Below, piece after piece: positions 38,834 to 51,062 of a stretch of 64,000 nucleotides of DNA. The DNA is from Psychrobacter urativorans. GTDB lineage: Bacteria > Pseudomonadota > Gammaproteobacteria > Pseudomonadales > Moraxellaceae. Each line of letters opens with the position of its first letter. The first letter of the stretch is position 1. The position numbers were made by a program, and so were the translations under genes. The stretch is from positions 1 through 64,000 of the forward strand of contig NZ_CAJHBT010000001.1 of assembly GCF_904846675.1 (NCBI RefSeq), in the 5' to 3' direction. The notes under the pieces were generated by a model, which was not told where the DNA came from, did not search any database, and worked only from the letters and a program-made list of their open reading frames with translations.

Positions 38834-39703
38834 ATGTCTACCGCACCTGCTATCCGCGCCTATCTTGGCGGCTCCTTTAATCCGGTGCATAATGGTCATA
38901 TCCAAATGGCGCTGCACGTTTATGACTGCCTTGCGCCTATCGCTACCAAGCAACAGTGCCCGCTACATATCTCATTGCTACCCAATGCGCGCTCACCCTT
39001 TAAAAAACACAGCACGGATCCGGCCTTCCGTTTAGCAATGTTAGAGTTAGCTATTAAAGGGACGCCGCTACAAATCAGCGAGCTTGAGCTTTGGCAAACG
39101 CCGCCAGTCTATAGCATCGATAGTGTGCACGCGCTTCGTCAACGCTATCCTAATGATACTCTGATATTTATCATGGGAATGGACAGCGCACGCAGTTTGG
39201 AGAAGTGGAAAGACGGTTTACAATTGACTAATTATGTGCATCTTTGGATATTTAGTCGGTCTAATAGCTCTGATTCATTGCAACCTAAGCAAATAATTAA
39301 TAACAGCGATAACACTGATGAAAGCGATAACACTCAGAATCTTTCTGCACAAGATATTACCGCTTTATGTCAGGAGCTACCGAGTCAGCTGCAAACACAA
39401 GTGACTGACAAATTGATAGATTTAGCGCAGCCGGTAGCTTATCCATTAAATCTGACTTTCAAAGACAGCAAACCCTTGAAAGACTATCAGTATTTGAAAG
39501 CCTCTCATCCCTTGAAAAACAGGCCTCAAGGACGCATTTATATAGACTCGCGACAAGTGACTGCGGTATCGAGTACTAATATCAGACAACAACTACGAAC
39601 AGGCAGCCGCATTGCCAATAACAGGGCCAATTTCCCAACTAAATTATTAAATCCTACAGTTTATCAATATATTATCGCCCATCAGCTATATTCTGCTGTC
39701 TAA
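38834..39703 (+). CDS. nadD: Nicotinate-nucleotide adenylyltransferase
   Basis: Forms deamido-NAD from nicotinate mononucleotide and ATP. The nucleotidyltransferase motif GGSFNPVHNGH is at about 12-22 and the C-terminal SSTNIRQQL (near residue 254) completes the family pair. The 289-aa length exceeds the usual 210-220; the excess is an Asn/Asp/Ser-rich insertion and neighbouring sequence around residues 150-235, between the two motifs. ATG 38834 is preferred over an in-frame TTG at 38807 because AAAGGG lies upstream. rsfS follows, the usual nadD-rsfS order. Confidence 0.92.
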   Translation: MSTAPAIRAYLGGSFNPVHNGHIQMALHVYDCLAPIATKQQCPLHISLLPNARSPFKKHSTDPAFRLAMLELAIKGTPLQISELELWQTPPVYSIDSVHALRQRYPNDTLIFIMGMDSARSLEKWKDGLQLTNYVHLWIFSRSNSSDSLQPKQIINNSDNTDESDNTQNLSAQDITALCQELPSQLQTQVTDKLIDLAQPVAYPLNLTFKDSKPLKDYQYLKASHPLKNRPQGRIYIDSRQVTAVSSTNIRQQLRTGSRIANNRANFPTKLLNPTVYQYIIAHQLYSAV

Positions 39704-39819
39704 TTCCGTTAAAATCGCCCTATCGGTGTCATTTTGCATTTAATGTGCTCATTCACGGCCAGTTAATGTAGAGCGACCATTTATACCTTTATTATCGATT
39801 ATTGAAGAGACCACTATTT

Positions 39820-40233
39820 ATGATTACAACCATGACTGACGAACGCCTAGCAGAGTGCCTAGCACTGGTAAAGACTGCTCTAGACGATATGAAAGCCAAG
39901 AACATCACCGTTCTTGATGTAGAGGACTTAACTGACGTAATGGAACGTATCGTTATCGCTGACGGCACTTCTAAACGCCACGTACGCGCAATGGCCGATA
40001 GCCTTGGCGCTGAAGCAAAAGAAGCTGGCTTTATACCACTTGGTCGTGAAGGCGGTAGTGATTCTGACTGGACCTTGATCGATTTAGGGGCAGTAGTCAT
40101 ACATATGATGATGCCAGCAGCCCGCGAGTTCTATGACTTAGAAGGTCTATGGTCATCACCTGAACAGCTGGCTGAGCTAGTCGCAGTCCCACGTGAAAAG
40201 AAAACAGCCGGTCGCCGTAATAAAAACAAATAA
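39820..40233 (+). CDS. rsfS: Ribosomal silencing factor RsfS
   Basis: 137-aa factor that binds L14 and blocks subunit joining when nutrients fall. Family segments are DMKAKNITVLDVEDLTDV, DGTSKRHVRAMADSL and GSDSDWTLIDLGAVVIHMM with EFYDLEGLWS. A second in-frame ATG at 39832 would also suit. Short basic tail. It follows nadD by about 115 bases. Confidence 0.93.
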   Translation: MITTMTDERLAECLALVKTALDDMKAKNITVLDVEDLTDVMERIVIADGTSKRHVRAMADSLGAEAKEAGFIPLGREGGSDSDWTLIDLGAVVIHMMMPAAREFYDLEGLWSSPEQLAELVAVPREKKTAGRRNKNK

Positions 40234-40280
40234 GACTGTCTATTTGAACTGCAATTTATTAAAACTGCAATGCTAGACCA

Positions 40281-40312
40281 AAAAGGCCGGATTAAATATC
40301 TGGCTTTTTTTA
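40281..40312 (+). terminator. rsfS terminator
   Basis: AAAAGGCCGGAT / ATCTGGCTTTTTTT, slightly imperfect stem with a long T-run. Confidence 0.8.
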
Positions 40313-40447
40313 TTTTTGCATTTCAAAAGATAGGTTGGATAATTTTAATGGGGCAAATAAGCTGAAAGTCGCTAATGATTGCGCTAAGATAATGCTACTA
40401 TTTGAACACTATTTATTCATTAAAATAACTACCGACTAGGATGTCTA

Positions 40448-41218
40448 ATGAGTTCAGGATTAAATAAGCCGTCAGAGCAAAAGCTCAAAACCGACACTAC
40501 TGACTTTAATAAAGCCCTACCCTTGCATATCGCTACCTTAATCGATGTCCGTGCAGGTAAGGCGATGCCATTCGCCCGTGAGCAAATGAGTGCCATTGAT
40601 AAAGCACCAATTAAAGCACCGGTTACCGTTAACTTTATGGGACTGACTACTGATGAGCAAGCTGACCGTAGACATCATGGTGGCCCCCTCAAAGCGGTGC
40701 ATCAAATGCCTACCGCTACTTATGGGAAGGTTAACGCAGAGTTTAATCTCAATGTTCGTATCGGTACCTTGGGAGAAAACCTTATCTCTGAAGCCGTCGA
40801 CGGTCTACCAGAAATGGACGAAACCACCGTCTGTATTGGTGACGTTTTTCAATACGGTAATGAAAAAGTAGATGGTAGCGCTAGTGTGCAGTTACGACTC
40901 GTCCAACCGCGTCGACCTTGCTATAAAATTAATGACCAAATCGGGCAATTTACTAAAGTGCCCAACATAGCCTCGTGGATTACTAAACAAGGCATCGCAG
41001 GCTGGTATTTTGAAGTGGTGCGGGATGGGATAATTAGTGCTGATTTGCCTGTGTATTTGATCGAACGCCCCTATCCATTTGCCACTCTTGATGTGCTTTG
41101 GCAGCTGTCTAATTCAAAAGACAAATTTGATGCTGAAATTATCGAGCCATGGCTGACGATTGAGTGCTTAGAGGACAGTTGGAAGAAGGTATTGGCGAAG
41201 AAGGTTAAGCAGGTTTGA
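40448..41218 (+). CDS. MOSC-domain protein (YiiM-like)
   Basis: 256-aa cytoplasmic protein of the MOSC superfamily, predicted molybdenum-cofactor-associated sulfur-carrier or reductase components. Typical YiiM segments are LTTDEQADRRHHGGPLKAVHQ, then RIGTLGENL and VQPRRPCYKIN, whose Cys is the likely molybdenum or sulfur ligand. YiiM of E. coli detoxifies N-hydroxylated compounds; whether this one does is inference. TAGGAT precedes the ATG. Confidence 0.85.
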   Translation: MSSGLNKPSEQKLKTDTTDFNKALPLHIATLIDVRAGKAMPFAREQMSAIDKAPIKAPVTVNFMGLTTDEQADRRHHGGPLKAVHQMPTATYGKVNAEFNLNVRIGTLGENLISEAVDGLPEMDETTVCIGDVFQYGNEKVDGSASVQLRLVQPRRPCYKINDQIGQFTKVPNIASWITKQGIAGWYFEVVRDGIISADLPVYLIERPYPFATLDVLWQLSNSKDKFDAEIIEPWLTIECLEDSWKKVLAKKVKQV

Positions 41219-41277
41219 GTCTATAACCCTAAAACTTATCGCATATTTTGTATTATTTATTTTACATTGAGCATTTC

Positions 41278-42147
41278 ATGGCAAAAAATACCACCTCTTT
41301 AGCGCTAGCATTATGCTTAACCATGCCTCTAATCGGCTGCGTAGCAACCATAGAACCACGTTATGTTATCGACAGCGAAACCTATCAAGCGACTGGCAAA
41401 AGTGAGCGGATTAAGTTTATCATCTTGCACTATACTGTCAGCGATAATGAACGCTCAATCAAACTGCTGACTACTGGTAACGTGAGCGCTCATTATCTTA
41501 TTTTATCTGACGACGATGATAAAATTTATAGCTTAGTACCTGAAAGTGAACGCGCTTGGCATGCCGGTAATGGCGAATTTGCTGGGAGAACCATCTTAAA
41601 CGACACTTCTATTGGCATAGAGATCGTCAATGATGGTATTAAACCAGAGTATAGAAAGGCGCTTAAACAAGGCGTCCAAGACTACCATCCTTACGGGCAC
41701 TATGTAGAATTTGATGAGTTACAGATTAAAAAAGTTGCCCAGCTAGTACAAGATCTAGCATTGAAATATAAGATTTCACCAAAGGATATTATTGGGCATT
41801 CTGATATGGCGCCCTCGCGCAAAACCGACCCAGGTGCAAAGTTTCCTTGGCAACGCCTGTATGAGCAATATGGTATTGGCGCTTGGTATGACGAGCAAGA
41901 TAAGCAGTTTTTTATGAATCAGGATGAGTTTGACGCAGCAACGATACCGGAAATAAAGCAAGAATTTAGAGACTACGGATATCGAATCAATGATACCAAC
42001 ACGTGGGACAAGAAAAGCCATGATGTCATTTATGCGTTTCAGCTACATTTCAGTCCACAGCATTTGACCGCGACCATGGATTTGGAAACCTATGCTATTT
42101 TAAAGGCATTGAATAAGAAGTATGCTGGTACAGATAATTTTTATTGA
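41278..42147 (+). CDS. AmiD-like N-acetylmuramoyl-L-alanine amidase lipoprotein
   Basis: 289-aa zinc amidase cleaving peptidoglycan or anhydro-muropeptides. The signal peptide ends MPLIGCVA, a lipobox, so it is probably outer-membrane anchored like AmiD. The amidase_2 domain shows FIILHYTVSD (zinc His), NVSAHYLI, ERAWHAGNG, IGIEIVNDG and GHSDMAPSRKTDPGAKFPW. A C-terminal peptidoglycan-binding-type helical region (about 215-285) follows. ATG 41278 is used; the longer ORF from 41248 lacks a ribosome site. Confidence 0.9.
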   Translation: MAKNTTSLALALCLTMPLIGCVATIEPRYVIDSETYQATGKSERIKFIILHYTVSDNERSIKLLTTGNVSAHYLILSDDDDKIYSLVPESERAWHAGNGEFAGRTILNDTSIGIEIVNDGIKPEYRKALKQGVQDYHPYGHYVEFDELQIKKVAQLVQDLALKYKISPKDIIGHSDMAPSRKTDPGAKFPWQRLYEQYGIGAWYDEQDKQFFMNQDEFDAATIPEIKQEFRDYGYRINDTNTWDKKSHDVIYAFQLHFSPQHLTATMDLETYAILKALNKKYAGTDNFY

Positions 42148-42156
42148 GTGGCGTAA

Positions 42157-42199
42157 GGTGTGTTAGTTTTGCCAAATTCTAGTAGAGAATGCAGACAAG
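42157..42199. repeat. Diverged copy of the 43.34-kb palindromic element
   Basis: Begins GGTGTGTTAGTTTTGCCAAA and continues through ATTCTAGTAGAGAATG. It aligns base for base with 43341-43386 at roughly 80 percent by eye, but the distal terminal repeat is lost. Confidence 0.6.
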
Positions 42200-42276
42200 A
42201 CCTAAACTACTCTACGCTATTAATAAGCGACTTCTAATCCTAAGCTATTTCTAAGCAAAGGTAACACAGGTATCCC

Positions 42277-43023
42277 ATGACTCTACGCATCCACGCCCTA
42301 TTCCATACGGATTATGAAGACCTTAGTTTCATCAAACAGTGGGCAAATAGCCACCATCATCAGATTAGTTATACTCGGTCTTATAATAATGATTTATTGC
42401 CAGAGCCCGACAGTTTTGATTGGCTAATAGTGATGGGTGGGCCAATGAGTGTCCATGATGATGAAAAATATCCTTGGTTAGTAGATGAAAAACGTTTGAT
42501 TAAACAAAGTCTTGATAATGGAAAAACGGTTATCGGAATTTGTTTGGGTGCGCAACTTATCGCGCATTGTTTGGGTGCTACTGTCCAGCCGTCTAGCGTA
42601 AAAGAGATTGGTTGGTTGCCCATTCGGTTGACGGAAGAAGGTCAGTCACATCCTTTATTACAAGATTTGCCAAAGCAAGCTTTTACCGTATTTCATTGGC
42701 ACGGTGATGGTTTTGACTGTCCACAAGGCGCAACCGCTATTGCCACTTCGGAGGCATGGGTCAATCAAGGATTTATTTATCAAACACCGCTACATAAAGA
42801 GCTTGGCACTTGGATTATGTGCTGGCAGTGTCACTTTGAAGTAACTAAAGAAAGTCTCGTCAAGATGGTAGCGAATGGACATGATGCTATACAGAGTGGC
42901 CTTATCGACTATCCCAAAACCGTACAATCAGCTGATGAGATAATAAAGGGTGGTAATAAGTATATTAAAGACAGTAACGCAAGGTTAGCAACCATGCTAA
43001 ATCGCATAGCAAAAGATAGCTGA
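42277..43023 (+). CDS. Class I glutamine amidotransferase-like protein
   Basis: 248-aa stand-alone GATase1-fold protein resembling the GuaA glutaminase domain. The nucleophile is C89 in GICLGAQLIAHCLGA, the oxyanion-strand motif is VMGGPMSVHD (about 52-61), and the His/Glu pair is in CHFEVTKES (near residue 188). Relatives hydrolyse gamma-glutamyl substrates or serve as amidotransferase subunits; the substrate here is unknown. A small charged gene follows after 25 bases. Confidence 0.85.
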   Translation: MTLRIHALFHTDYEDLSFIKQWANSHHHQISYTRSYNNDLLPEPDSFDWLIVMGGPMSVHDDEKYPWLVDEKRLIKQSLDNGKTVIGICLGAQLIAHCLGATVQPSSVKEIGWLPIRLTEEGQSHPLLQDLPKQAFTVFHWHGDGFDCPQGATAIATSEAWVNQGFIYQTPLHKELGTWIMCWQCHFEVTKESLVKMVANGHDAIQSGLIDYPKTVQSADEIIKGGNKYIKDSNARLATMLNRIAKDS

Positions 43024-43048
43024 AACTAAATAATAAGAGGAATCAACT

Positions 43049-43240
43049 ATGAGTAACTCTCAAAAAGAAAACCTTGAAAACTATTTGAGCGAAAAGGCCA
43101 AACAAGATCAAGAGAGCGAGCAGCAACCTAAGCCAAAATCTGCGTATGAAACATGTGTTTTAGCTGAAAGTGCTAAGATACATGAGTTAATAGCTGAATC
43201 GCAAAGAGAGGCTAAAGAACGTTCGTTAGAAGATGAGTAA
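43049..43240 (+). CDS. Small charged protein of unknown function
   Basis: 63 aa, rich in Glu, Lys, Gln and Ser with no hydrophobic core, probably helical or disordered. Support for being real: AAGAGGA at ideal spacing, tight 25-base linkage to the upstream amidotransferase gene, and coding-like composition. No family recognised. Confidence 0.6.
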   Translation: MSNSQKENLENYLSEKAKQDQESEQQPKPKSAYETCVLAESAKIHELIAESQREAKERSLEDE

Positions 43241-43340
43241 CTATATAAAAATATATTTTAAACGAGGGTTCCGCATCAACTTGCTTTAAGTTGAGCAACT
43301 GCCACATTGCTTTTTCATAAAAATAAATTGAGTTGTATAG

Positions 43341-43395
43341 GGTGGGTTAGTTTTGTCAAATTCTCATAGAGAATGAAGGCAAAGTATAACCCACC
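43341..43395. mobile_element. Short palindromic element with perfect terminal repeats (REP/MITE-like)
   Basis: 55 bp bounded by GGTGGGTTA and TAACCCACC, with an inner hairpin ATTCTC/GAGAAT. A partial copy lies at 42157, and TAGGGTAGGTTACGC follows at 43421. It sits 81 bp from the 3' end of the ABC-3C operon. No coding capacity. Confidence 0.65.
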
Positions 43396-43475
43396 GTTCG
43401 TATTGTTATTTTTATACATTTAGGGTAGGTTACGCTATTACTAAAATATTTTGTACATAAAAAATATAGCAATAA

Positions 43476-45266
43476 TTACCAAGCAGGCATTTTGAATAAT
43501 CTACCATTTTTTCCATCATCATGAAATGTTAAAACAATCTCTTTATCATTGAATGGATTTTGAGGAAAACCTGAAGTTTCAGAGCTAATTGTAGTAATAA
43601 TAATTTGGATTCCTAAACTGCTATACTCACGAAGAACTTCTAGCAAAAGCTTCCTTTTCCTATCATCAAGCACTTCAAGCGCTCCATCAATATAGAGGAA
43701 TTTAGGATAATTTTTATCAAGGTATGCACGGGCAACAGCTAAGTCAAAGGCAATACATAAAAACTTCCCATAAGTATTCCCATCACCTTCACTAGTATTA
43801 TTACCTTGGAAATCTTGATAAGTAGCATCAAATTCAAAATTACCGTTTTTATTTAGATAAACAGTAATTGAACCCTCTTTATTAAAGACTTTGGATATGA
43901 TTTCGTTAAAATAAATACGTACGTTTGAAAACACACTGTCTGTAACTTCATTAACTTCCGTTAAATTAACCTGCATATCATCTTGAATGCTATCGAGTTC
44001 AGTTTCTAAAGCTCTTTTACCTTTAGTAAGAGATTGAATTTCATCTATATTTTCTTTCTGTTTATCTAAAAATGCAATTTCTGCTTGAACTCTTGCTATC
44101 TCTTTATTGGATTCTCTAAATTTGGTAACCAATTTTGTTTCAGATAAGAAACTCAAATGGTTAGCTCGTTCAAGATTAAGTGACTCTAACTGATCTTCAA
44201 TGAATACTAACTCTGATTGTAGCTCTGATAATTCTTCTTTTAGAAATTTTTTTCTTTCTTTAGTAATCGCCTTATTAAAATCAATTAATTGGTTAAAATC
44301 TTTACTGACTTCTTCAGGGAATAATATATTGGCTTCTTTAAAAAGATTTTCTATTTCACTAGTATTAAATTTTATACTAACAGTATTCAGAGATTCATTT
44401 ATACGGTGAATGTTATTTTTGATACTATATTCCCGCATGTTCAGGTTAGCAATCTCATTATCAATACTATTAACTAATTGCTCAATTTTTTCTTGGTCAA
44501 TTTCGTCAAAGTTGAAGTTATCAATGAATTCTTGCAATTTCGTCAATTCTTTTTGACGCAATAAAAGCTTGTTATCAATTTTACTAAGCTCTTTGGTCAC
44601 ATTGTCCATATCAGATAACGAAATTGCTGAAATCTTATCTTTCAGCTTATTAACTTCAGCTAGCTTCTCGTAATGTTGCTTTGCTAAATCTCCATCGAAG
44701 CCTAGTAGGTCTGCCATATAAGGCTTCCAATATAAGTCTTTACCAGCCTCTTTGTTTAATTTGAATACATTCCTAAAGTCTTCTTGAGTTCTAACTAAGT
44801 AACCAATGATCTTTCGATAAGGATACTGGCTTAATATATCGAAATGCAACCAACCCTCAAGTAAAACTTTCGCATTATCTATAGCCACATCTCCATGGCT
44901 CCATAAGTTATCAGTCAATGAAGAAAAGTCTTGCTGTTTTTCGTTATGTTTTTTGAAAAATATTCTTGTATTTTCTTTTATACTTCGCCTTATAGTGAGA
45001 TAAGAACCATCGGCAAGTTCAAGCTCTAAGAAAAAAATAAACTCTGCGAATCGTTCTTCATGCTTGAATAAGAATTGCTTAGGATGCCGCTTAGCTAAAA
45101 ACATGAAGTCTAATAATTTAGCTAAAGTGGTTTTACCAAGATTGTGTGTATCTAACTCATATCTTTCAGGGTGTCTAATATCACCATACACAACGTTAAA
45201 CCCATTGTTAAAAACGATAGGTTCAAAAATAGTATTTTGGTTGCTGTATAGTTTGGATAATTTCAT
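43476..45266 (-). CDS. ABC-3C system SMC-like ATPase (DUF2326 family)
   Basis: 596-aa ABC/SMC-type ATPase, third gene of a three-gene operon. The Walker A is the reduced form typical of this family, DTHNLGKTT (39-47), lacking the leading glycine of GxxGxGK. A long charged coiled-coil region spans about 190-450. The signature-like SEGDGNTYGK is at 492-501 and Walker B FLYID at 523-527 is followed by Gly rather than Glu. In ABC-3C systems this protein is thought to sense or hold DNA and gate the effector. Its start overlaps the stop of the 79-aa gene by one base (TAATG). Base composition is clearly more AT-rich than neighbouring housekeeping genes, suggesting acquisition. Confidence 0.82.
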   Translation of the reverse strand: MKLSKLYSNQNTIFEPIVFNNGFNVVYGDIRHPERYELDTHNLGKTTLAKLLDFMFLAKRHPKQFLFKHEERFAEFIFFLELELADGSYLTIRRSIKENTRIFFKKHNEKQQDFSSLTDNLWSHGDVAIDNAKVLLEGWLHFDILSQYPYRKIIGYLVRTQEDFRNVFKLNKEAGKDLYWKPYMADLLGFDGDLAKQHYEKLAEVNKLKDKISAISLSDMDNVTKELSKIDNKLLLRQKELTKLQEFIDNFNFDEIDQEKIEQLVNSIDNEIANLNMREYSIKNNIHRINESLNTVSIKFNTSEIENLFKEANILFPEEVSKDFNQLIDFNKAITKERKKFLKEELSELQSELVFIEDQLESLNLERANHLSFLSETKLVTKFRESNKEIARVQAEIAFLDKQKENIDEIQSLTKGKRALETELDSIQDDMQVNLTEVNEVTDSVFSNVRIYFNEIISKVFNKEGSITVYLNKNGNFEFDATYQDFQGNNTSEGDGNTYGKFLCIAFDLAVARAYLDKNYPKFLYIDGALEVLDDRKRKLLLEVLREYSSLGIQIIITTISSETSGFPQNPFNDKEIVLTFHDDGKNGRLFKMPAW

Positions 45267-45505
45267 TATTTTTTCTCAATATACTCAATTGAGTCAGTTT
45301 TTGCCTTATACTCAATCAAGCCAAGCAAAAACAAAAGATTTAGTGTGGGCATAAAAAGAAACTCACCACTAGTAACTTTGTCTTTTATAAGCTGAAACAA
45401 ATCAGAATAACCAATTACTCGCTTCTTACGTAGTTCTTTCAACATAATAAAACTAACATAAATTACAGTTTTGTCAGGGTGGCTATGTTTTGTAGGTTTA
45501 ATCAT
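45266..45505 (-). CDS. ABC-3C system middle component (MC6-like)
   Basis: 79-aa protein beginning MIKPTKHSHPDKTVIYVS and containing LFLLGLIEYKAKTDSIEYI near the end. The pattern fits the ABC-3C middle component 6, a small winged-helix-like adaptor linking effector and ATPase. It overlaps the upstream effector gene by 8 bases and the downstream ATPase by 1 base, so all three are translationally coupled. Identification is by motif memory and context; biochemical function is not established. Confidence 0.78.
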   Translation of the reverse strand: MIKPTKHSHPDKTVIYVSFIMLKELRKKRVIGYSDLFQLIKDKVTSGEFLFMPTLNLLFLLGLIEYKAKTDSIEYIEKK

Positions 45506-46448
45506 CGTTTGACTTCCCTATGTCGCAATTGAAATACATATAGAAAACTAGTATCCGAGTTAGTCTTTTATTTACTTTCAAAATATAGTCTCTGTCAATT
45601 AGCAAAGCTACTAATTCATTAAAGACTTCATCAAAATACTTCAATTCTCTTTGGCGAGGAATAATAAATGTCTGCTGAAACTCTTCTATAGCATTTTGAT
45701 ATAAGTTTTGTAAATTTGTATTTTGAGGGTCATTCAGGAACTCTTGAACCTGAAAAGCATAACTCATATAACTTTTGCGTAATGACTTAGCAAACTCATC
45801 ACTCATATTATTTATTTGATTTTTTTCTTCATAACTCGTTCTATTGACGGGTCTAAAATCTTTATGTTTAACACTGATATCGAAAACATTAGCAAAGTGT
45901 GGGATGATTTCGGCTAAATCGTCAGGGCGTATTATAGGAGACATTGTCAATGGTGATAATTTCACCATCTCGACTATATATCTGTATCGACTCAACCAAC
46001 TGTTCAGGTCATCAATACCAAAAACGCCAATATTGCCGATATCTAATCCTGTATTTTCAGATATATATTTTTTTATTTGTGGTTCAGCACCCCCTGTTAG
46101 CTTCCTATTTGCAAACAGCATATAGTTATCAAGCTCATTTTTATCTATAAGCTTCTTTATTTTAACCACCTCTTCGCTAAGAGTAGCACCTTTAGAGCCT
46201 TCACTAAAAAAACTTGAGTCAAGAAAATGTTGGTTTATACCAGAAGTATGTTTAGCTTGAATAATTGTTATACCTGTCCAAGGCTTACTTCTACTGGGAT
46301 ATTCATTTGCTGTGCCTACAAATTTTCCATCACGCCCACCGTCAGGACCGGGAGCAAAACCTTGAGTTGCTTCTCCTAATGTTTCTTTACAAATTTGAAC
46401 CGCAAGAACTTCAAAGTCCAGTTCATTCATGTCTTGATATTGGTACAT
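45498..46448 (-). CDS. ABC-3C effector with restriction-endonuclease-like N-terminus
   Basis: 316-aa first gene of the operon. Residues 1-70 look like a PD-(D/E)xK nuclease core: Glu13 in the first helix, Asp40 in GPDGGRDGKF (34-43), and the Q64-x-K66 element of TIIQAKH, as in Mrr-type nucleases. The remainder (about 170-316), with the mid-region LDIGNIGVFGIDDLNSWL, resembles the common C-terminal domain of ABC-3C effectors. I infer DNA cleavage triggered through the middle component and ATPase. The ribosome site (AAGAGCG) is moderate; a TATAAT lies at 46479-46484 on the minus strand without a good -35. Confidence 0.8.
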   Translation of the reverse strand: MYQYQDMNELDFEVLAVQICKETLGEATQGFAPGPDGGRDGKFVGTANEYPSRSKPWTGITIIQAKHTSGINQHFLDSSFFSEGSKGATLSEEVVKIKKLIDKNELDNYMLFANRKLTGGAEPQIKKYISENTGLDIGNIGVFGIDDLNSWLSRYRYIVEMVKLSPLTMSPIIRPDDLAEIIPHFANVFDISVKHKDFRPVNRTSYEEKNQINNMSDEFAKSLRKSYMSYAFQVQEFLNDPQNTNLQNLYQNAIEEFQQTFIIPRQRELKYFDEVFNELVALLIDRDYILKVNKRLTRILVFYMYFNCDIGKSNDD

Positions 46449-46518
46449 AATCGCTCTTACTTTGATACTTATTTGTTTATTATAGTCTAATAATACTTGT
46501 TTTTCTCTAGCAACTTTC

Positions 46519-46632
46519 TTACAGGGTTAAGTGGCTTTTAATGTAAACGTAGCTCTCCAATTTTGACTCTGCTCCTGCCCTTCGACGAGGGACGGACATA
46601 GCCATTAAAGAGCGATTAGCTTTGCCCCGCAT
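46519..46632 (-). CDS. Possible 37-aa ORF or 5' remnant of a lost gene
   Basis: Starts ATG at 46632, only about 6 bases after AGAAGGAGA, an excellent ribosome site, and encodes a basic peptide (MRGKANRSLMAMSVPRRR...) ending in TAA. No family recognised. The strong translation start with a very short product suggests either a small regulatory peptide or the truncated beginning of a gene. It lies just upstream of the ABC-3C operon on the same strand. Confidence 0.3.
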   Translation of the reverse strand: MRGKANRSLMAMSVPRRRAGAESKLESYVYIKSHLTL

Positions 46633-46951
46633 ATTTGTCTCCTTCTAAAGAACTCCAATATTCAGGCTCATCTTTTAGTATTTAATCTTTTTTGGTAAAA
46701 GTTATATATATATTCAAATAAACTAGTGTAGCACCTAGCCCTGAGAGTTTCTGAATCTAAACTTAATAAGATTATCACAGATTTAATCTGGCTCAATGTA
46801 CGTGTTACTAGAAACTTACTATATCACTCATCAGGTGTGCACGTGGAGCAAGCGACGATCCAAACAGTAGCCAGCGCCTCGCCCAGACTGGCAGATACAA
46901 GCGGAAGGCGGGAATCAGCTCCCCTACCTTAAAAACCCAAAATTCAAACCC

Positions 46952-46982
46952 AAAAAAGGTGAGCCAAGCCCACCTTTTTTTT
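46952..46982 (-). terminator. purL terminator
   Basis: AAAAAAGGTG / CACCTTTTTT perfect arms, 9-base loop; suits both strands. Confidence 0.85.
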
Positions 46983-47000
46983 ATCTAAAACAATTACTTT

Positions 47001-50000
47001 TTAACGAACCCAAGCCCGCGCATTACGGAACATCCGCATCCACGCGCCGTCTTCGTCCCAGACCGCCGGTTTCCAGCTGTGATTGTACGCACGTAATGTA
47101 CGCTCAGGATGCGGCATCATAATCGTGACGCGACCATCAGTGCTACATAAACCAGTGACACCGCCGACCGAACCGTTTGGATTGAGCGGATACGTCTCAG
47201 TTGGCTGACCTTGACTGTCTACGTAACGCATGGCGAGTTGACCATGTTTTGCCATGCCATCGATTTCTGTAGCATTAAGTGTGGCAAAGCCTTCACCGTG
47301 GGCAACAGCGATCGGTAAGATACTGTCTTGCATGCCTTTAAATAATATCGATTTAGTGCGCTCAACTTTTACGTTGACCGTACGCGCTTCAAAGCGAGCC
47401 GATTTATTCGCGATAAAGCGTGGGAAGTTCTCCGCACCAGGGATTAAGTCTTTGAGCTGTGCCATCATTTGACAGCCGTTACAGACGCCAAGGGTAAAGG
47501 TTTCTGGACGCGAGAAGAAGCGTACAAACTGCATGCGCAAATCGTCATGGAACAGGATAGAGTTCGCCCAGCCCGAGCCTGCGCCCAATACATCACCGTA
47601 GCTAAAGCCGCCACAGGTCACCAACCCTTCGAAGTCGCGTAGATTAATACGGCCTTTTAGCAAGTCGCTCATATGGACGTCTACTGCTTCAAAGCCTGCT
47701 TGGGTAAAGCCTGCTGCCATTTCTAACTGACCATTAACACCTTGCTCACGCAAGATAGCGACTTTTGGTTTATTGGCACGGCTATTTAGATAAGGCGCTT
47801 CAATCGCTTGGCTCAAATCAAAGTTTGGCGTGGCAATCAGACCTTGATAGCTGCTATCAGTAATCAAGTCATATTCTTGTTGTACGCACGCAGGATTGTC
47901 ACGGCGACGGGCGATTTGATAGCTGACCTGACTCCACTCTTGCTGTAATTTGCCACGGCTAAAGCTTAGGGTTTTATCACCCATTAACGTTGGGGTTTGG
48001 ATAAGTAAACTTTCTTCTTCAGAGCTCTGACCGACTAGGCTCAGCATATCGCTAACATTAAACTCTTCTGCCAATTGCATCAATGCTGGCACGTCTTCTG
48101 GCATAACTTGAATAACCGCGCCTAACTCTTCACTGAACAGTTGACCTAATAAGTTGTCATCGGTTAATGACAGCTTGATACCTTGACGACTGGTGAATTG
48201 CATCTCAGCGATAGTGGCAAGCAAGCCGCCATCACCGATATCATGATAGGCACTGATAACATCTTGTGCGTTACCGGCTTGGATAAAGTTAAAGAAATCA
48301 ACCAAGTCGCTCGGCTGCGTTAAATCTGGGCAGTCGTTACCTAATTGGCTAAGCGTTTGCGCAAGGATTGAACCGCCTAAACGCAATTTCCCTTTGGACA
48401 AATCAATTCGATAAAACGCGCTATCGCCATTGATTAGCTCAGGGGTTAGGGTTTGCGCGACATCAACTACTGGCGCAAAGGCGGTAATGACCAAGCTCAT
48501 TGGCGAGACAATTGATTTGTCTTGTGCGCCTGCTTCTGCACTATTATCCGTCCAATTGGCACGCATCGATAGCGAATCTTTACCCACTGGAATAGCAATA
48601 CCGAGTGCCGGACATAATTCTTCACCAATCGCATGTACCGCATCAAATAATGCGGCATCTTCTACATCATCACCGCAAGCCGCCATCCAGTTTGCTGACA
48701 TCGTAATGTCTGACAATTGCGCAATACACGCGCCAGCAATATTGGTAATGGCTTCACCAACCGCTAATCGTGCAGAAGCGGTTGGGCTAATCAAGGCGAC
48801 CGGCGTACGCTCACCGACACTCATGGCTTCACCGCTCATCGGTTGCCCATCAAGATTGAGCAAGCTAGATGCCGTTACCGCACAGTCAGCGACGGGTACT
48901 TGATAACGACCAACATATTGATCACGCACTACCATACCGGAGATAGAACGGTCACCAATGCTAATTAGGAACGACTTGCTAGCAACGGTAGGATGACGTA
49001 AGACGTCAGTAATAGATTCAGCTAGATTAACCTCACCAAGTTCCAACGCTGGCAAGGTTGACTCTTGACGGCTAAAGCTACGCTTCATTTGCGGCGTGCC
49101 ACCAAGCAATACTTGCATCGGCATATCGACTGGCTGTTCAGCTAGCAATTCATCATCGACGATTAGCTGACGCACATCAGTTGCGGTACCCAAGATGGCA
49201 TACGGGCAGCGCTCACGCGCACAAATAGCATCGAACTGCGCTTCGCTTTCAGGATGAATCGCTAGCACATAACGCTCTTGCGCTTCATTCGACCAAATTG
49301 CCATTGGCGACATGCCAGCCTCTAACGAAGGAATGCGACGTAGGTTTAGATGCGCGCCCATTTCATGGTCATTAACCAATTCTGGCATGGCATTTGATAA
49401 GCCGCCTGCGCCGACATCATGGAGCGAGACAATTGGGTTACCATCTTTACCAGCATTACTAACATCGACATCATTACCCGCTAGTGCCCAGCAGCGATCC
49501 ATCACTTCTTGACAGCGACGTTCCATCTCAGCATTATCACGCTGTACCGAGGCAAAGTCTAAGCCTTCATCTAATGAGCCACTATCGACTGAAGATGCGG
49601 CACCACCACCCAAACCAATTTGCATCGCTGGGCCACCAAGGACGATTAATAAATCACCTTGCTGAATACTGTTTTTTTCAATTAGGTTGCGTTTGATATT
49701 GCCATAACCACCCGCCAGCATAATTGGCTTATGATAACCACGCATTTGACTACCATCTTTTGCCGCTGAGGTATCAAGCTGGAAGCTACGGAAATAACCG
49801 CATAGACTCGCGCGACCAAACTCATTTGAGAAGTTGGCACTTCCTAAAGGCGCTTCCGTCATAATCTCAAGGCTGGTGGCCATACGCTCGGGCGTACCAT
49901 AATCTTTTGTGCTTACATTGCCTGACTGCTCCCACTTTTCTGCTAGCTCAGGAATATGGAGATGCGAGACATGGAAACCAGTTAAGCCTGCTTTAGGCTT

Positions 50001-51062
50001 ACCGCCACGACCGGTTGCGCCTTCATCACGAATCTCACCACCAGCGCCAGTAGCTGCACCCGCATAAGGAGCAATCGCCGTTGGGTGATTATGAGTTTCA
50101 ACTTTCATTAAGATATCGATTTCTTCTTGATGGAAGCTATATGGATGCGCTGACTGCTCATTCTTGGCATCTTCAGGAACCGGACAAAAACGCCAGCCTT
50201 CAGACCCGGCCATAACCGCCGCGTTGTCTTTATAAGCCGACAAAATACCTTGTGGATTTTTCTGATAAGTATTCTTAATCATTTGGAATAATGATTTGGC
50301 TTGTACTTCGCCATCAATCGTCCACTGCGCATTAAATATTTTATGACGGCAATGCTCAGAGTTGGCCTGCGCAAACATCATTAGCTCAACATCAGTCGGA
50401 TTGCGTTTCAGCTCATCGACATAGGCATTCATTAAATAGTCAATATCTTCGCTAGATAATGCAAAACCAAATTCTATATTAGCTGATTCTAGAGCTGTAC
50501 GCCCTTCTTCCATCACATCGATATGATTCAATGACGCTGGCGGTTGGTCGTCAAATAATTTACTAGTTTCTGTTAAGTCATAAGATAAGCTTTGGGTCAT
50601 ACGGTCAAATAATAACTGCTCGCCCACTTTAGGTAGCTTCTTATTAACCTGAATATCAGCCACATTATCTGCAAGCGTTAAGGTATAAACAATCACCCGC
50701 TCAACCCGATTAATCTTAATCTCACAGTTATTAAAAATATCGGTCGCTTTACTGGCCCACGGCGATATCGTGCCAAAGCGTGGTCCAACTATCACTTGTA
50801 ATTGATTGTTTTGCGGTGCATCAAGTTCGAGACTAGCCTCAACACCTAATAGATCCAACGCCTTTTTATGCTCATCACCCTCTAATTCCCGTGATAGCAC
50901 ATAGACTTGCTGAGTGCTAATCTGGGTAACATTTAGATTGGTTTTTTGCTGAAACTGACTGATGAGTTGCTGCGTCTGAAAATCGGTCAAAAACGGTTGT
51001 CCGGCGATGGTCATCATAAAGGCATATTCCATGGGATTAGACAAAAGAGGCATCACTGCCAT
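47001..51062 (-). CDS. purL: Phosphoribosylformylglycinamidine synthase
   Basis: Large single-chain PurL of 1353 aa converting FGAR to FGAM with glutamine in purine synthesis. Domain order: N-terminal PurS-like part, the FGAM synthase core with FAQANSEHCRHKIFNA and VETHNHPTAIAPY, a second AIRS-like half (around 690-1020), and a C-terminal glutaminase domain with nucleophile Cys in LGVCNGCQMMAQL and the MPHPERTLRA His/Glu motif. The exact start is uncertain: MAVMPLL at 51062 and MEYAFMM ten codons later both lack strong ribosome sites. It has an extended -10 just upstream. Confidence 0.96.
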   Translation of the reverse strand: MAVMPLLSNPMEYAFMMTIAGQPFLTDFQTQQLISQFQQKTNLNVTQISTQQVYVLSRELEGDEHKKALDLLGVEASLELDAPQNNQLQVIVGPRFGTISPWASKATDIFNNCEIKINRVERVIVYTLTLADNVADIQVNKKLPKVGEQLLFDRMTQSLSYDLTETSKLFDDQPPASLNHIDVMEEGRTALESANIEFGFALSSEDIDYLMNAYVDELKRNPTDVELMMFAQANSEHCRHKIFNAQWTIDGEVQAKSLFQMIKNTYQKNPQGILSAYKDNAAVMAGSEGWRFCPVPEDAKNEQSAHPYSFHQEEIDILMKVETHNHPTAIAPYAGAATGAGGEIRDEGATGRGGKPKAGLTGFHVSHLHIPELAEKWEQSGNVSTKDYGTPERMATSLEIMTEAPLGSANFSNEFGRASLCGYFRSFQLDTSAAKDGSQMRGYHKPIMLAGGYGNIKRNLIEKNSIQQGDLLIVLGGPAMQIGLGGGAASSVDSGSLDEGLDFASVQRDNAEMERRCQEVMDRCWALAGNDVDVSNAGKDGNPIVSLHDVGAGGLSNAMPELVNDHEMGAHLNLRRIPSLEAGMSPMAIWSNEAQERYVLAIHPESEAQFDAICARERCPYAILGTATDVRQLIVDDELLAEQPVDMPMQVLLGGTPQMKRSFSRQESTLPALELGEVNLAESITDVLRHPTVASKSFLISIGDRSISGMVVRDQYVGRYQVPVADCAVTASSLLNLDGQPMSGEAMSVGERTPVALISPTASARLAVGEAITNIAGACIAQLSDITMSANWMAACGDDVEDAALFDAVHAIGEELCPALGIAIPVGKDSLSMRANWTDNSAEAGAQDKSIVSPMSLVITAFAPVVDVAQTLTPELINGDSAFYRIDLSKGKLRLGGSILAQTLSQLGNDCPDLTQPSDLVDFFNFIQAGNAQDVISAYHDIGDGGLLATIAEMQFTSRQGIKLSLTDDNLLGQLFSEELGAVIQVMPEDVPALMQLAEEFNVSDMLSLVGQSSEEESLLIQTPTLMGDKTLSFSRGKLQQEWSQVSYQIARRRDNPACVQQEYDLITDSSYQGLIATPNFDLSQAIEAPYLNSRANKPKVAILREQGVNGQLEMAAGFTQAGFEAVDVHMSDLLKGRINLRDFEGLVTCGGFSYGDVLGAGSGWANSILFHDDLRMQFVRFFSRPETFTLGVCNGCQMMAQLKDLIPGAENFPRFIANKSARFEARTVNVKVERTKSILFKGMQDSILPIAVAHGEGFATLNATEIDGMAKHGQLAMRYVDSQGQPTETYPLNPNGSVGGVTGLCSTDGRVTIMMPHPERTLRAYNHSWKPAVWDEDGAWMRMFRNARAWVR

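Follow-up and report, generated by a model that had tools for sequence, protein, structure and literature searches.

A rare Lamassu relative of the ABC-three-component class beside purL in Psychrobacter urativorans

What does a compact cassette of three genes beside purL do for Psychrobacter urativorans? The cassette lies within the first 64,000 nucleotides of contig NZ_CAJHBT010000001.1 (assembly GCF_904846675.1), and this whole stretch is referred to as the window. A first-pass annotation, made by a model from the sequence letters, had read the genes as an ABC-three-component (ABC-3C) conflict system, a class reportedly named by Krishnan et al. in 2020. The cassette is identified here as a rare Lamassu relative. 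Its class already has a name, and NCBI labels the relatives accordingly as 'ABC-three component system protein', 'middle component 8' and 'DUF2326 domain-containing protein'. We consider it likely that the cassette is a mobile ABC-3C immune system that works like Lamassu. This conclusion is based on the three protein families, their gene order, conserved catalytic residues, a sporadic distribution, and carriage by mobile elements and at a hotspot rich in defence genes.

Protein families and gene order

Profile searches place all three cassette proteins in ABC-3C families, each component in a named Pfam family, and the class proposed at first pass is supported by matches to CTD12, MC8 and DUF2326 that all pass their cut-offs. 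CTD12 matched the 316-aa effector with 145 bits against a cut-off of 25 (E 2.9e-42). The 79-aa protein, previously called an adaptor, passed two ABC-3C middle-component profiles, MC8 (74.8 bits, cut-off 25) and MC6 (35.9 bits, cut-off 27.2), and matched no PADLOC model. Its predicted model has a pLDDT of 67, with no PDB match to a winged-helix (KITE-like) or other fold. The 596-aa ATPase passed DUF2326 on its last 199 residues (76 bits, cut-off 28.7) and in a six-frame genome search (77 bits). Whole-protein Pfam scans of the window ATPase missed this domain, a result that weighs against the assignment. The miss is probably a HMMER filter effect because the 16 aligned relatives all match DUF2326 as whole proteins; the window ATPase is the sole miss among 17. 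A scan of the cassette proteins against NCBIfam returned nothing over its cut-offs.

The three reading frames lie on the minus strand and overlap by 8 and 1 bases, as had been described. The cassette is also AT-rich as claimed, with a GC content of 32.2% against 43.4% for the window, and 8 of 611 sliding segments of equal length are as low. Promoter-like sites in 43200-47100 numbered 11, fewer than the mean of 14.2 in shuffles, and we therefore propose no promoter. Nor do we propose an attachment-like repeat, because blastn of 42277-47600 gave no repeats at E ≤ 0.001.

Homologues were gathered by scanning genomes, plasmids and contigs, and genome contigs supplied six loci. Six other genomes with CTD12 were found among 369 genomes of the class and 398 of the phylum (5 and 3 matches, the source genome counted in each). 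The effector matched 33 plasmid records, of which 28 are typed as conjugative and 22 cover at least 80% of the query. Nineteen loci that hold all or part of the cassette were inspected. Five of these have a broken, cut or replaced gene: the ATPase is in two pieces and the effector is short in L007, the effector is in two pieces in L047, L049 and L059 are cut by the end of a contig or record, and L056 lacks the nuclease domain. Both proteins of L007 and L047, L049, the L059 effector, the CTD-only L056 effector and three E. coli loci were excluded from the effector and ATPase alignments; the intact L047 ATPase was used in a separate alignment.

The order effector-middle-ATPase on one strand was found in all 14 relatives' loci with three complete genes and in each of the three E. 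coli loci that were fetched. The three-gene arrangement is beyond chance, since this order recurs in both sets. The window proteins share 43% (effector), 53% (middle component) and 46% (ATPase) identity with the fetched E. coli copies. Such copies were found in 8 of 5426 E. coli genomes, a lower bound obtained with Citrobacter cassette DNA as the query, and all are chromosomal.

A nuclease-like effector and a reduced ATPase site

Residues E13, D36, D40, Q64, A65 and K66 are invariant in the 15 aligned full-length effectors (the window protein and 14 relatives), and CTD12 was matched in every one. The Glu13/Asp40/Gln64-x-Lys66 core named at first pass is therefore present at those residues and conserved. 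The Pfam Mrr_cat profile stayed below its cut-off for the window effector (14.2 against 21 bits) and matched 12 of the 15 aligned effectors at E ≤ 0.1, with a best value of 0.0013. The effector N-terminus matched two PADLOC models, PDC-S73 (2.6e-11) and an Aga protein (5.3e-6). In a predicted model of moderate quality, compared with no residue-level superposition, the top structural neighbours of residues 1-166 are restriction-type nucleases, in agreement with the fold expected in the first-pass annotation and with conservation of the E/D/(E,Q)xK residues. Used by itself, Foldseek found nothing at E ≤ 0.001 for either predicted model (effector or MC8). The effector N-terminus is classed as a putative PD-(D/E)xK/Mrr-type nuclease-like domain on this combination of profile and model evidence. 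Matches of the effector to COMMD-like, T6SS VipA and BNR-repeat proteins were discarded as weak chance hits, and structural rows for the RNA polymerase subunit Rpb5 and TRAPP subunits were treated as fold-level noise.

The ATPase alignment (the window protein and 16 relatives) shows H41, L43, G44, K45, D527 and G528 to be invariant in 17 of 17. The reduced Walker A motif reported earlier, HNLGKTT, is present. Its first P-loop Gly is missing from all 17 aligned ATPases, and the reduced P-loop is therefore a trait of the clade and not a sign of decay. All 17 also have Gly directly behind the Walker B Asp, where the catalytic Glu would normally stand, and their D-loops align in register. PADLOC model PDC-M68B covers the ATPase nearly end to end (residues 3-591), and the LmuB model PDLC03859 follows in rank and spans residues 1-561; PADLOC models carry no curated cut-off here. 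A single Cys occurs in the window ATPase, which lacks a CxxC zinc-hook motif. An AspBHI chain (E 0.36) and coiled-coil chains matched by the ATPase were discarded as weak chance hits.

Two readings of the locus are judged against these residues. The cassette could be a decaying, functionless remnant, and the relatives L007 and L047 do carry broken genes. The three window frames are open, however, and every residue invariant among the relatives is kept, which makes this reading very unlikely. The cassette could also be an ATP-dependent, type IV-like restriction enzyme in which the nuclease would attack modified DNA of invaders and the ATPase would be the subunit that handles DNA. We consider this improbable. 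No modification-reading domain turned up with Pfam, CTD12 occupies the C-terminus, and the catalytic Glu that a motor should have is missing from the ATPase. Similar nuclease-like domains also begin a 1333-aa Priestia protein (L058), which has a NACHT match below the Pfam cut-off, and a 730-aa Agrobacterium protein (L057). The nuclease domain is thus a general effector module.

Table 1. Positions in the window of the cassette genes, their domains and motifs, and the variable segment around them
Feature	Position	Strand	Basis
Effector ORF, 316 aa	45498..46448	-	PD-(D/E)xK/Mrr-type nuclease-like (putative) N-terminal domain + CTD12
Middle Component 8 (MC8), 79 aa	45266..45505	-	PF20295 E 5.8e-21; three predicted helices (model)
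SMC/Rad50-like DUF2326 ATPase, 596 aa	43476..45266	-	PADLOC PDC-M68B 1.3e-52, LmuB 3.2e-16
Nuclease-like domain (putative), effector residues 1-166	45951..46448	-
Effector Glu13, invariant	46410..46412	-	15/15 aligned, window included
Effector Asp40, invariant, within D36-G-G-x-D40	46329..46331	-	15/15 aligned, window included
Effector Gln64-Ala65-Lys66, invariant (Q)xK motif	46251..46259	-	15/15 aligned, window included
CTD12, effector residues 173-311, presumed docking domain	45516..45932	-	PF20279 145-147 bits
Walker A, ATPase residues 39-47 DTHNLGKTT, first Gly replaced	45126..45152	-	17/17 aligned
Walker B Asp527-Gly528, Gly instead of catalytic Glu	43683..43688	-	invariant 17/17 aligned
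DUF2326 domain, ATPase residues 459-593	43488..43892	-	PF10088 76-77 bits
Variable segment at purL hotspot, approximate	43240..46892	.	blastn of flanks vs G093, most similar PurL (96%)

The purL-side site and carriage on mobile elements

The cassette was found in 2 of 105 genus genomes, the source genome and G057, and these two agree with the CTD12 search. The G057 proteins are 58% (effector), 67% (middle component) and 54% (ATPase) identical to those of the window. ATPase matches at E ≤ 0.001 occurred in 37 genus genomes, and 35 of these were dropped because their rows lie in coiled coil within residues 290-451 at 24-30% identity; a second ATPase match in G057 was of the same kind and was also dropped. 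This distribution bears on the proposal that the cassette is a host chromosomal complex for DNA repair or recombination of the Rad50/SMC type. The C-terminal part of the ATPase does have a weak SMC_N match (E 0.0058, below the cut-off), but presence in two genomes of the genus, the AT-rich composition and the relatives on mobile elements leave this proposal with hardly any probability.

The first-pass annotation placed the cassette among housekeeping genes. That is correct for the flanks, which are purL and a glutamine amidotransferase gene, and not for the gap between them, where the cargo varies among genomes of the genus. The site was compared in 21 genomes, including the source genome, that have both flanking genes within 10 kb on one contig. 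The gap ranges from 449 to 8971 bases and its contents vary; the G054 site is nearly empty at 449 bases. None of the three cassette genes was detected by tblastn (E ≤ 0.001) at the 20 other sites. The left limit of the variable segment (Table 1) reaches 43417 when G091 is used for comparison.

At 12 of the 20 other sites the scan covered one or two cargo proteins each, and four of these sites match named PADLOC systems or candidates: RmrA and RmrT in G103, PARIS AriA (in two stretches) and AriB in G017, the viperin pVip in G098, and PDC-S33 with a SocA/Panacea partner (Pfam) in G055, a SocA/RelA-SpoT-type pair. Other cargo includes NACHT (G030), DUF4365 (G099), Mrr_cat (G090) and NERD (G086) proteins and, in G091, a helicase with a partial PbeA match. 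The remaining eight sites include an empty one and some in which ordinary genes, for example an acyltransferase-like gene, were recognised by eye. On these matches the purL-amidotransferase interval is a hotspot for cargo, several immune systems among it.

Several further features of these sites were recorded. The G016 and G036 sites encode proteins that combine HD-CE with a histidine-kinase-type ATPase (835 and 1028 aa; L092 and L096) and have no PADLOC match; the L092 gene looks split (158 + 835 aa). The G093 site (L091:1080-2825) has a 581-aa protein with DACNG/DACNH sensor domains, which also lacks a PADLOC match, and an adjoining 201-aa gene. By eye, the amidotransferase gene of G091 is split by an IS-like ORF pair. 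At 4 of the 20 sites the island contains an incomplete, diverged duplicate of the 3' end of purL with the stretch downstream of it, about 120-330 bases long and 72-79% identical (L093:2368-2692, L100, L105 and L108), as if cargo had been gained by recombination with foreign purL flanks.

The G057 cassette is not at purL, and nothing was found in an 8-kb stretch around the end of the purL gene of that genome. This copy (L052:8382-11387) is located beside genes for Sak4-like, repressor, CII-like, Ant (antirepressor), primosomal-like and Holliday junction resolvase proteins, and terminase-, portal- and head-like ORFs are seen by eye beyond it. Because phage-type genes surround it, this copy is assigned to the repressor/recombination region of a prophage. 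No cassette was found in phage records or viral contigs; the G057 copy lies among phage genes, so this absence leaves phage carriage possible. The three fetched E. coli copies are behind guaA on integrative elements with an integrase (a pseudogene in one), a RepA-type gene, traJ, trbJ and trbL. RecQ and DprA genes are downstream of two of these, and the pair scanned in L116 matches PsyrT/PsyrA. An IncC plasmid carries the Citrobacter copy, with a gene for a site-specific integrase ~0.8 kb upstream, and an Agrobacterium copy is flanked by AbiEi/AbiEii and a PDC-S15 protein. The carriers of cassette relatives thus include a prophage, plasmids of conjugative type and integrative elements at the guaA site. 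One E. coli copy (L115:18258-21845) has vWA, PP2C phosphatase and helix-hairpin-helix genes downstream, and a 718-aa protein of this locus matches PADLOC PD-T4-6 (8e-8, residues 11-220).

These carriers raise the question of who benefits. The cassette might mainly serve competition between elements, as an anti-plasmid or superinfection-exclusion module of benefit to its carrier, with phage defence of the host secondary. The conjugative plasmids, the G057 copy near prophage genes and the E. coli elements with transfer genes all favor this view, and the review PMC10586767 reports Lamassu to be active on plasmids as well as phages. The window copy, however, is at a chromosomal hotspot, and inspection of 39000-51000 by eye revealed no integrase-like ORF. 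We regard a primary role in competition as possible, short of probable. It is compatible with a Lamassu-like immune system: the machine would be the same, and the beneficiary and trigger would differ.

A probable Lamassu-like mechanism and possible exchange of effector modules

The closest described arrangement is ABC-3C with MC8 and CTD12 (PF20295, PF20279). The window cassette matches all three families in the same order, and nothing essential differs. The PADLOC candidate PDC-M68 is matched by the window ATPase (PDC-M68B), whereas the effector and the 79-aa protein match no PDC-M68 model; among the matches listed, no mention of PDC-M68 was found in the literature. Avs4 is a single STAND protein with a nuclease domain at its N-terminus, and the window nuclease would, unlike that of Avs4, be run by a separate ATPase. 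The best structural neighbour of the effector CTD comes from a PDB entry whose title describes a crosslinking-MS model of YydD-YydB. YydD is the DUF2326 protein of B. subtilis. The N-terminal part of YydB is unaligned, and the Z score is within the chance range for helical bundles. YydD and YydB are not named in the main text of the structural-proteomics paper PMC10090944, and no functional study of either was found by title among the matches listed. Sequence searches found no convincing solved structure for any component of the branch, and no functional study of the ABC-3C MC8/CTD12 branch was found in the literature, judged from titles among the matches listed.

Lamassu (DdmABC; LmuA-LmuC-LmuB) resembles the cassette in having an effector, a small middle protein and an SMC-like ATPase with a degenerate Walker B. 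The window ATPase matches the PADLOC LmuB model, and the effector model aligns weakly with LmuA entries. The review PMC10586767 groups ABC-3C with Lamassu, treats LmuB as the probable sensor and the C-terminal domains of LmuA as possible docking sites, and takes the Glu-to-Gln change in the LmuB Walker B to imply slow or no hydrolysis. The window-type ATPases have Glu-to-Gly at this position. The same review describes a CxxC hook in many, not all, LmuB proteins, and the window ATPase is without one. V. cholerae Lamassu has a Cap4 effector and a DUF6521 middle protein according to the review PMC12409362, which also reports LmuA release and tetramer assembly; the window has an Avs4/Mrr-type nuclease and MC8 in their place. 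Sensing of DNA ends or hairpins by Lamassu is reported in the review PMC12904381.

By comparison with these systems, we infer that the window cassette senses DNA under the control of ATP and releases an effector that cuts DNA in trans, with an abortive outcome. The DUF2326 ATPase dimer would bind ATP and a feature of the invader DNA (ends, hairpins or replication intermediates). Because the catalytic Glu is missing, the ATPase would hydrolyse ATP slowly and act as a switch and not as a motor. CTD12 and MC8 would keep the nuclease inactive on the ATPase, and engagement of DNA would free or re-assemble the effector. The freed effector would cut DNA in trans, and the cell would be arrested or killed before the phage or plasmid spreads.

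One locus suggests that effectors can be exchanged. The Alteromonas plasmid pKD01 (L056:4899-6005) encodes an ATPase with 28% identity to that of the window, an 82-aa protein that scores 24.1 bits for MC6 and so falls short of the cut-off of 27.2, and a 195-aa protein that consists of CTD12 only (68.3 bits, cut-off 25) and lacks the nuclease domain. Immediately upstream is an 89-aa protein in which two hydrophobic segments can be seen by eye and which has no Pfam match over the cut-off. A plasmid search with the CTD-only protein returned 21 records, the protein itself and 20 below 60% identity; all 19 of these 20 that are among the matches listed are records whose effector also matched the full-effector plasmid search, so that the case for exchange comes from this single Alteromonas record. 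DUF2326-MC8-CTD12 may, tentatively, be an interchangeable sensing chassis, an ATP-binding-only switch into which effectors are plugged through CTD12. With the nuclease gone and the 89-aa protein directly upstream, the pKD01 sensor would trigger membrane damage instead of DNA cutting. The pKD01 cassette adjoins Tn7-like tnsD/tnsE.

The ABC-3C MC8/CTD12 branch would show if the release-and-assemble logic of Lamassu also applies when the nuclease and the middle component are different and the ATPase site is even more degenerate. E. coli has natural copies, and standard strains can be used to test the branch. For finding more immune systems in the genus, the site beside purL is a practical starting point.

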